DNA of 64,000 nt. Origin: Phycisphaerae bacterium RAS2 (lineage in GTDB: Bacteria > Planctomycetota > Phycisphaerae > UBA1845 > UTPLA1). A program made the position numbers and the translations under genes. Below are positions 54,284 through 57,176 of the stretch, one piece after another. A model generated the notes under the pieces. The model had not been told where the DNA came from. It did not search any database and worked only from the letters and a program-made list of their open reading frames with translations. The stretch is from positions 3,659,306 to 3,723,305 of the forward strand of contig CP036352.1 in the NCBI GenBank assembly GCA_007753915.1, given 5' to 3'. The stretch's first letter is position 1; every line of letters begins with the position of its first letter.

Positions 54284-54488
54284 GTTAAGGTCGAAAATGT
54301 TTCATTTCGCGGAATGCGGACCTGCGCGGGCGGTTCATATCGGACCAGCCGTAGCGTGGACTCACCCTTCGGCGCGACCGGTCCGAGCCGCCGCAGTCAT
54401 GCGGCGGAACGCAGTCAATCGGCGACCGTGCGCTTTCCTACGGCTCTGACAGACGCGCGCGGCGCTCCTCGCCGTGGTGAGCTTGCAT

Positions 54489-54660: not shown

Positions 54661-54690
54661 TTGACATGCCCGTGGCATTTGTGTTATACT
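54661..54690 (+). promoter_or_regulatory. Strong sigma70-type promoter of the pectate-lyase-like gene
   Basis: A perfect TTGACA (54661-54666), an 18-bp spacer and TATACT (54685-54690). Predicted start near 54697 gives a ~78-nt leader with AAGGAGG at 54760-54766, 8 nt before ATG 54775. Confidence 0.85.
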
Positions 54691-54774
54691 CGCGTCATCT
54701 CGTGGGGCCGGACGGGCCGCTCACCGGGCAAGCGGGCGGCGAGAAGTGTGCCGTTGGCGAAGGAGGCCAATCCA

Positions 54775-56450
54775 ATGGACCGTCGTAGCTCGTTTCGACC
54801 CGTAGCCGTTCTCTCTCTCTCTCTCTCGTGATCTGCGCGCTGACCGCTCGATCAACGATTGCTGACCCCGATCCGCCGCAAGAGTATCCCTGTCCACCGA
54901 TGCCCACCGAGGCATCGCCGGCATTCGAGGGCGCGATGGGCTGGGCCAAGTTTGCCTTCGCCAACCCGCCGCAGAACTACAACCCGAACTTCTGGTACGA
55001 AGTCACCAATGCCGACGACTACATCCCCGGTGTGGATGATCCCGAAGACTTCGACGATACGCTGCGGTACGCGATCGAAGAAATCAGCGGCCCGCGCAAC
55101 ATCAAGGTGCTCGTCAACGGGACCATCACGCTCAAGAGCCAGCTTAGCATGGATGACCAGTCTTACGTGAAGATCACCGGCGAATACGCCACCGGGATCG
55201 GCCCGACCATCATCGGCGACGAGTTTCGCATCAAGGACTGCAACAACATCGTTCTGCGGTACATGCGTTTTCGTTCGCGTGAGAACGCGACTCACCATTG
55301 CGCCCGCTCGCTGCTGATCCTCGGCGAGGACGAAGGCTGCAACGACGTCATCGTGGACCATTGCTCCATCGGCGCATCGCGCGATGACAACATCTCCGTC
55401 TATGGCAAGCTTTGCCGCGTCACGGTCCAGAACTGCATCATCGGCGGCGGGATGATCGGTTTTTCCCGCGCGGGCATCGGGTCCGGTTCGACCAGTGCCC
55501 ACGTCCACGAACGGCTGACCTATTGCAGAAACCTCATCACCAACACATCGGATCGGCAATTGCTTTTCTTCGGTCCCGGCCGGGTGGATTTCTTTAATAA
55601 CATTGTCTCAATCAACAAGTCCGCGATGCAGCTGGGAGCCGAGACCGGCACTTACGGCCCGCAGATCAACATCATCAAGAATCACTTCCGGACGGCCAAC
55701 GCCTTCACACGCGGCGCTTACTTCGAGGACCCGATTCGGGCGAAGGTGGTCGCCAGCCCCATCGGACCGGGCAACCAGGAATTGCCCGTGAGTTCCAACG
55801 GGTTCTCCATCCACCTCAACGGAAACCTTTACAGGAAGTACAATGTGGTCGAACAAACCTATGAAGACCCTTATGAGAACCAGTGGGACCTGACTTACGA
55901 CCTCAACAATCACGAGGGCCACGAAGACCCGCCGCCCGGCGAGGCCAACTTCCCGACCGACTTCCAGAAGGTGGGTGCGTGGGACATGCCGTCCGACACG
56001 ATCCTCAACGCAGTGGATGTCGAGGCGCATGTACTGGCCAACGCGGGCTGCCAATTGCCGACGTCGCAGCCCACGTGGGATGATTATGATTCGATCCTCG
56101 TTGAATCGGCGATGATTGATGATGGCTCGAAACCCAATCGCGTCTTTCCGGATACCGAACCGGATAACGACGGCTTCCCCGGCACGCCCGCGCTGACCTA
56201 CCCCGCCCACAATGCAACGGGCGTCTCGACGAGCGTCACGCTCTCGTGGATCCAAAGCGATGAAACGGATGACTACGAAGTTTTTCTCGACACTAACATA
56301 TTTCCAACAACAAGTATCGGCGTAACCTCGAACACACAGATACAAGCCTCGAACCTCCAGGCGAATACTCTCTATCGATGGAGAATCGTGGCAAGAGATA
56401 GCTGTGAAAACACATCGGGTACGCAATCTCGCGAATTTACAACGGAGTAA
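54775..56450 (+). CDS. Secreted pectate-lyase-like beta-helix protein, out of frame at a (TC)9 tract
   Basis: The start at ATG 54775 has AAGGAGG 8 nt upstream, and its first 18 codons (MDRRSSFRPVAVLSLSLS) form the first half of a signal peptide. They run through a TC repeat and hit TGA at 54829-54831. The rest of the signal (VICALTARSTIADPDPP) and the mature protein continue in another frame from 54828. With eight or eleven TC units the frames join. The mature part (~530 residues) is a parallel beta-helix of pectate lyase type (YVKITGEYATGIGPTIIGDE, DVIVDHCSIGASRDDNISVY), with a C-terminal fibronectin-III-like domain. Substrate is not proven. An assembly error is the alternative. Confidence 0.85.
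54810..54827. repeat. (TC)9 microsatellite in signal-peptide codons
   Basis: Nine uninterrupted TC units lie inside the signal-peptide region. Dinucleotide tracts of this length slip during replication. One unit fewer or two more would restore the frame from ATG 54775 to the pectate-lyase-like domain. Confidence 0.95.
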
Positions 56451-56468: not shown

Positions 56469-57176
56469 ATGCGAAATACACACTTAGTAATCGCTGTCGG
56501 ATTTGTCAGTTGCGCGACATCTGCGCTGGCTGAAATAGTTGTTTGGCAAACGGCTATGCCACTGTCTGCCAACGCCTTCATAGCAGGCCAAGGAAACGGA
56601 TACACTCGCCTCGACCTCGGATGCAACGCCACTGTCGGCGAGTGCAAATGGAAAATTACCACACAGGTCTTCATCGCTGACGGCACGCTCCGCAGTTACA
56701 GCCTGTCGATTCGCGATCCGGCCGGAGCGGCCACGCAGTTGAGCGTCTCCGAAAGCAGCTTCGCCGGCGCGCCGTTTACGAATGTCTTCGCGCAACACGA
56801 GAACATGCCGCCCTTTCTCTCGTATCTTTCGGCGGGGCTTTTCCCCGGTCAGCCGGATGTTCCCGCCGGGCCGACGGTTTACAACCTGCACAGCTACGTC
56901 CTGACCTCGCAGGCAGGCATCGCTCCCGGCACGCTGACCCAACTCCGCGGCGGGTCCAACGGGTTCGTCGGTTTCGAACCATTTGATCCGCTCGACAGCC
57001 ACCGCATCACGGCCTTCGGCGCAAATCCCGGGTTTGACATCAGCAGCGGCGAATGGCCCAACCCGGTCATTCACATCAACTACGTCCCCGAACCAACCAC
57101 GGCCGCGATGCTCCTCGCCCCGGCGGTGTTGCTGATGCGCCGACGGCGGTCGCGCGGTCGCACACTTCGGCAGTAA
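56469..57176 (+). CDS. PEP-CTERM sorted secreted protein
   Basis: A 235-residue protein 18 bp after the pectate-lyase-like gene, probably cotranscribed. A signal peptide (VIAVGFVSCATSALA) is followed by a ~180-residue beta-rich domain with one Cys pair (DLGCNATVGECKW). It ends in the classic sorting signal: VPEP, a hydrophobic stretch (AAMLLAPAVLLM) and an Arg-rich tail (RRRRSRGRTLRQ). Such proteins are processed by an exosortase and attached to or released from the cell surface, often with exopolysaccharide. No exosortase gene is in the window. Confidence 0.92.
   Translation: MRNTHLVIAVGFVSCATSALAEIVVWQTAMPLSANAFIAGQGNGYTRLDLGCNATVGECKWKITTQVFIADGTLRSYSLSIRDPAGAATQLSVSESSFAGAPFTNVFAQHENMPPFLSYLSAGLFPGQPDVPAGPTVYNLHSYVLTSQAGIAPGTLTQLRGGSNGFVGFEPFDPLDSHRITAFGANPGFDISSGEWPNPVIHINYVPEPTTAAMLLAPAVLLMRRRRSRGRTLRQ

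Follow-up and report, generated by a model that had tools for sequence, protein, structure and literature searches.

The pectate-lyase-like gene analysed here belongs to a dispersed family whose members carry a pure dinucleotide tract within the signal sequence, and the best explanation for this arrangement is very probably SSR-mediated translational phase variation of a dispersed multi-gene secreted repertoire. The gene lies in the window, i.e. the whole stretch of 64,000 nucleotides that was analysed, from Phycisphaerae bacterium RAS2. In the genome of this bacterium (G000, a 4.32-Mb single contig), the only (TC)6-or-longer and (AC)6-or-longer tracts are all found between the start codon and the mature protein of six paralogs. 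The first-pass annotation had read the window gene as a contingency locus, and this reading is supported by paralogs that differ in tract length and state, by relatives of opposite state in a second genome and by a sixth paralog that uses AC. On these grounds, a contingency family is far likelier than a single accident, and the feature is larger than first described: a gene family, not a single locus.

The window locus

The coordinates of the window locus are collected in Table 1. The promoter elements, the AAGGAGG and the ATG that the first-pass annotation had placed ahead of the tract hold base for base, as do the closure of the ATG frame by a TGA behind nine TC units and the intact frame downstream. 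A promoter scan of the window alone was not significant (1 site against 1.0 +/- 0.9 in shuffles), and the promoter call is retained because of its conservation across cassettes rather than because of the scan: all 11 aligned cassettes of two genomes have TTGACA, and 9 of the 11 have TATACT. The ATG is conserved in 10 of these 11 cassettes and replaced by AAG in one copy with a deletion.

Table 1. Coordinates of the repeated unit and its parts at the window locus
Feature	Positions	Strand	Basis
31-bp repeat with palindromic core (CCGCCGCAGTCATGCGGCGG)	54378..54408	+	Script scan
Sigma-70-type promoter TTGACA-18-TATACT (-35 TTGACA, 54661-54666; -10 TATACT, 54685-54690; spacer 18)	54661..54690	+	Pattern scan; cassette alignment of two genomes
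Shine-Dalgarno (SD) sequence AAGGAGG	54760..54766	+	Sequence; AGGAGG in 11 of 11 cassettes
OFF-state ORF from ATG 54775, 18 codons (MDRRSSFRPVAVLSLSLS), then TGA 54829-54831	54775..54831	+	Translation
(TC)9 tract, OFF phase, alternating Leu/Ser in any frame	54810..54827	+	Sequence; homologous tracts in relatives
Rest of signal sequence and mature pectate-lyase-like protein, 540 codons including stop, from GTG 54828	54828..56450	+	Open frame; family profile against PDB
Fibronectin-III-like C-terminal segment, residues 467-526	56226..56405	+	Pfam fn3, E 0.002, 18.7 bits, under the gathering cut-off of 25; PDB FN3 profile matches
PEP-CTERM gene, 18 nt past the lyase stop, without a tract, part of the repeated unit	56469..57176	+	TIGR02595; tblastn

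The tract consists of exactly nine perfect TC units and occupies codons 12-18 of the ATG frame; chance matches to (TC)9 with up to two mismatches average 0.01 in the window (100 shuffles). As expected of a translational phase-variable locus mediated by SSRs, the repeat is pure, lies within the gene and has a unit length that is not a multiple of three, and the reading frame past the tract is intact and under selection even in the off state (540 open codons; dN<dS, see below). The earlier proposal that one TC unit fewer or two more would join the two frames is arithmetically sound: a copy is ON when its unit number equals 2 mod 3, and the 23-, 14- and 26-unit copies do have a continuous frame in the existing assemblies.

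Paralogs in the same genome

The pattern (TC)6 has 49 overlapping matches in G000, none of them on the other strand, and these correspond to five tracts of 23, 12, 16, 14 and 9 units, each located directly before a dispersed copy of the lyase family. The four TC copies outside the window are 61, 63, 59 and 39% identical to the window protein. All five share an ATG 35 bases ahead of the tract and the residues MDRRSS(L/F)R(P/S)VAV preceding the Leu-Ser run, and the frame from ATG to mature protein is open at 23 and 14 units and closed at 12, 16 and 9. The sole (AC)6-or-longer tract of the genome has 16 units and is found, in frame, in the signal sequence of the sixth paralog (42% identical to the window protein). 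In this AC subfamily the repeat codes for Thr-His ahead of the hydrophobic core, for which reason the tract is not explicable as a Leu-Ser core. Two weaker homologs (33 and 31% identity over part of the protein) lack a tract of this kind within their fetched surroundings (L066 and L067). Apart from the window tract, the tracts of the six paralogs are located at contig positions 1027192, 2240181, 2837320, 3484181 and 1106280.

Pure CTC/TCT runs are, moreover, unlikely to be plain Leu-Ser coding given the codon use of the genome (5,290 codons), with probabilities of 10^-4.6 at nine units down to 10^-16.7 at 26. The four ON copies of the two genomes compared here have a net positive N terminus and a 12-residue hydropathy maximum of 2.2-2.5. 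As for other repeat types, a scan for tri- to hexanucleotide repeats covered the window and 17 other stretches, and poly-G runs of nine or more were found at four places in G000. The same-genus genome described below has 13 such runs, the longest of 13 (one is located at G001:C1:280754-280766), and a single (CG)7.

State and selection in a same-genus genome

The same-genus genome G001, also a single contig, was scanned for TC tracts at (TC)9, and its full copies are a (TC)12 copy that is off, a (TC)26 copy that is on and a (CA)11 copy that is off; the pattern (AC)6 marks one tract there, that of the (CA)11 copy, which again lies in a signal sequence. Taking both genomes together, four of the nine full copies are ON and five are OFF. 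None of the nine coding regions, which share 36-93% amino acid identity, contains a stop or a frameshift, dN is lower than dS in all 36 pairs, and the coding regions are under purifying selection.

The closest relatives across genomes are found in opposite states. In the first pair, a (TC)16 copy that is off in G000 corresponds to a (TC)26 copy that is on in G001 (81% amino acid identity, dN 0.146, dS 0.571, dN/dS about 0.26); in the second, an (AC)16 copy that is on in G000 corresponds to a (CA)11 copy that is off in G001 (93%, dN 0.045, dS 0.285, dN/dS about 0.16). Unit number and state hence differ between related genomes (16 versus 26 and 16 versus 11) in pairs that were matched by sequence, and the members of each pair may sit at different places, since their flanks beyond the repeated unit gave no alignment.

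Contig C31 of a further genome (G015; L077) was considered as a second strain for tract stability and rejected, because the 10.3 kb round its tract are identical to those of G001 (L070). Both carry (CA)11, the first 10.3 kb, tract included, are 100% identical and all 41 mismatches fall in the last 1.7 kb, while the two genomes are assigned to two genera. The contig probably represents the same strain as G001, contamination or a very recent transfer. Loss of mismatch repair was likewise rejected as the reason for the long tracts, mutS1 and mutL being above cut-off in both G000 and G001. Helicobacter pylori lacks this mismatch-repair pathway, and with mutS1 and mutL present slippage may be slower here than in that species.

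Anatomy and spread of the repeated unit

Four additional G001 copies lack the tract and most of the lyase domain and share a common joint at the tract start, apparently through one deletion that was copied to four places. At the joint (tract-start position on the gene strand: L071, 6823; L074, 6687; L073, 6705; L072, 6555), the beginning of the signal sequence runs straight into the C-terminal third of the lyase-like gene. One of these four copies is preceded by the upstream flank of the window (84-91% over about 4.4 kb) and is dispensable, because the G001 locus has lost the tract and most of the lyase domain.

Over the 165 bases that precede the tract, the five G000 copies agree with one another at 86-96%, and identity between genomes is 80-84%, whereas in the coding regions G0d is paired with G1b of the other genome (81%; the remaining comparisons give 51-72%). 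The 5' cassette of G000 hence evolves in concert, probably by gene conversion. In G001, identity between the two full cassettes is just 83% and does not exceed the level between genomes, yet one of the two resembles three deletion copies at 89-96%.

The 31-bp repeat was sought in 18 stretches, allowing up to four substitutions. It flanks 6 of the 11 TC units in direct orientation: L062 (positions 6503 and 9387), L064 (6482 and 9532) and L069 have a copy on either side of the unit, the window, L063 and L074 a single one. It is absent in the other 12 of the 18 stretches, including that of the unit in L061. This repeat may mark how the unit was copied round the genome.

The encoded protein and the downstream gene

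The protein encoded past the tract looks like a secreted pectate lyase, from which an enzymatic activity of this type would be expected. A profile built from seven of the nine full-length family members matches, in its N-terminal part, the pectate lyase 9buj of the PDB (E 3.7e-22, positions 28-293), and near the C terminus it also matches FN3 chains. Within these same seven members, the residues DHCSIGAS (window residues 177-184) and DDN (186-188) are invariant. PF00544 (Pectate lyase PL1) is recognised in two of the seven (best E 1.4e-4). The likeness to PL1-like pectate lyases (PF00544; PDB 9buj) concerns the N-terminal profile match, whereas the window protein differs from them in falling below the Pfam gathering threshold, with no Pfam match at 1e-3, and in its FN3-like C-terminal segment. 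A weak match to PelZ was also seen.

The Pfam matches of the window protein (scanned at E up to 10) and of the seven members (E up to 0.01) were confined to fn3, Pur_ac_phosph_N, GH85_C, Beta_helix and Pectate_lyase_4, with no outer-membrane homolog of Opa or OipA. No named relative of the lyase protein was found among the contigs of named genomes, a set that may not include records close to the window's genome.

The gene that follows the lyase is recognised as PEP-CTERM by TIGR02595 (18 bits against a cut-off of 16, E 0.0038, residues 206-228), while its Pfam PF07589 score of 7.5 bits is under the cut-off of 20.7. According to tblastn, a homolog is present at the same place in all seven full TC units and in all four deleted units; none was found by this means in the two AC units, where another gene is located.

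Proposed mechanism and alternative explanations

From the perspective of its proposed operation, phase variation would begin with slipped-strand mispairing during replication, which would add or remove dinucleotide units. With the ATG in frame, the signal peptide would be made and the pectate-lyase-like protein exported; with the ATG out of frame, translation would end after 18-34 codons and yield no useful product. The shared promoter and SD sequence would keep every copy transcribed and ready, so that which members of the repertoire are shown would be random in each cell. In the TC copies the repeat would itself be the (Leu-Ser)n core of the signal peptide, and for this reason three extra units would lengthen the core, adding two residues; such a change in core length is a possible fine-tuning of secretion. 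That one protein family has unrelated dinucleotides, TC and AC, in corresponding positions suggests that switching itself has been selected.

Four alternatives were weighed against this mechanism. An assembly or sequencing error, by which the true window tract would be in frame and the off copies artefacts, is unlikely. Dinucleotide runs are error-prone in long-read assemblies, both genomes are single-contig and probably of long-read origin, and the unit counts given for long tracts in such assemblies may be off by one. Nine units would nevertheless be short for long-read repeat errors, and five of the nine family copies are out of frame across two separate assemblies. In addition, a long tract occurs at this point in every full-length copy of both tract-bearing subfamilies, which is no artefact, whatever the exact length.

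About as unlikely is the view that the off copies are still expressed, either because ribosome or RNA polymerase slips on the repeat or because translation re-initiates at a start codon beside the tract, in which case the repeat would set a ratio, for instance of secreted to cytoplasmic form. At the window locus the stop TGA overlaps the GTG of the downstream frame (GTGA), an overlap that had previously been overlooked, and re-initiation at GTG 54828, giving a product without signal sequence, is conceivable. An ATG in the mature frame stands directly behind the tract in the six other full-length TC copies, and the (CA)11 copy of G001 has an in-frame GTG three bases before the tract. These tract-adjacent starts are, however, not preceded by a Shine-Dalgarno sequence, whose place is occupied in the TC copies by the pyrimidine-only tract, the re-initiated product would be devoid of the charged n-region, and the (AC)16 copy of G000 has no start codon at the end of its tract.

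It is quite improbable that the chief role of the repeat is to serve as a recombination or gene-conversion junction, by which paralogs would exchange promoter/signal cassettes, with frame switching as a secondary effect. In favour of this view are the likeness of the 5' cassettes within G000, as against the pairing of the coding regions across genomes, and the joint at the tract start that is common to the four deletion copies. The low mutual likeness of the two full G001 cassettes speaks against it, although one of them is close to three deletion copies. Besides, conversion needs no pure, length-variable dinucleotide run, and in the AC subfamily this position is taken by another run.

Finally, the notion that the off copies are decaying pseudogenes and the tract a passive mutational scar is very unlikely: copies do decay, as evidenced by the four G001 cassettes without tract, one of them with the window's upstream flank, but the nine full-length coding regions are intact and constrained whether on or off, and the promoter and SD sequence are conserved in the cassettes.

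Relation to known phase-variable systems

Work on repeat-driven phase variation has centred on host-associated pathogens, Helicobacter and Neisseria among them, and usually attributes it to immune evasion. With the phase-variation reading adopted here, the lyase family is a case of a known mechanism in an unexpected host and with unexpected cargo. If true, it would call for another driver than immune evasion, e.g. phage pressure, cheating on shared enzymes or bet-hedging on polymers.

Two systems resemble the family most closely in layout. The oipA (hopH) gene of H. pylori carries (CT)n in the 5' part that codes for the signal peptide and is switched on and off by unit number through slipped-strand mispairing, according to passages of PMC10564699. 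A pyrimidine dinucleotide in the signal-peptide region, switching by unit number, is what is proposed for the lyase family too. In contrast, oipA encodes a single outer-membrane protein of a pathogen, whereas the genes described here form a dispersed pectate-lyase-like set with an (AC)n subfamily, in a planctomycete-type host that has mutS and mutL. The opa genes of Neisseria, as portrayed in parts of PMC3960869, are dispersed multi-copy genes with a CTCTT repeat in the leader-peptide region and are diversified by recombination. They share with the lyase family the dispersed copies, each with a pyrimidine repeat in the leader, and differ in that their repeat is a pentamer and their products are outer-membrane adhesins, as opposed to the dinucleotides and the lyase-like proteins in tandem with a PEP-CTERM gene found here. 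No homology of the lyase family to opa or oipA was seen.

The earlier remark that such loci are rarely reported in this kind of bacterium fits the literature searches. Among the searchable papers naming both, a body that leaves most of the subscription literature outside, no title has phase variation in planctomycetes as its subject. To judge by titles and the starts of abstracts, no phase-variable pectate lyase is apparent among the papers listed that name both pectate lyase and phase variation. In a term search, neither 'planctomycet' nor 'phase vari' occurred in the body of PMC12699852, which surveyed short tandem repeats in 2025.

Tracts beyond the genus

A wider reading is put forward tentatively, with a somewhat less than even chance of being right. 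Phycisphaerae-type planctomycetes may commonly run secreted families as contingency repertoires, with several independent origins of the dinucleotide tracts in signal peptides, both of multi-copy exoenzymes and of beta-helix, dockerin, FG-GAP, TSP3 and subtilase-type proteins. Slippage would both switch copies and alter core length, and clonal cells would randomly divide polymer attack or surface display among themselves.

At the level of the order, 14 of 114 genomes contain (TC)9. Leaving aside G000 and G001, every tract of the remaining 12 was fetched, 29 in total. An open frame of at least 240 codons follows the tract on the TC strand in 15 of the 29 and on the GA strand in 5 of the 29, and in 10 of the 29, several of them at contig ends, the TC strand offers no frame that reaches 90 codons. 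The layout SD-ATG-(TC)9 occurs in 15 of 397 genomes of the class, where several matches lead into short frames or contig ends, against 5 for the (GA)9 control; two of these five control hits read a tract of a TC hit from the other strand. In named genomes the same layout is found in at least 118 stretches from many phyla, 17 of 80 being planctomycete by title among the matches listed. Ten of the proteins behind such tracts were considered, six from the order and four from the named set: three have no Pfam match, and the others include subtilase, beta-helix, FG-GAP, TSP3, dockerin and DUF7948 types.

Multi-copy sets with (TC)9-16 near the start were also observed in two other genomes of the order, with four paralogs of other secreted-looking proteins in G056 (L144-L147) and three or four in G095 (L163-L166). 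All four tract genes of G056 are out of frame from the SD-bearing ATG, so that their starts may be misassigned, and for this reason they are not counted as proven. Within G095, L165 and L166 are located at contig ends and have the same following residues; they are probably one gene split in two, hence three copies are possible. A compound arrangement was observed in G068:C99 (L141, 2425-2446), in which a CA run is directly followed by a TC run of 11 units, and this CA/TC tract precedes an open frame of at least 808 codons with FG-GAP repeats.
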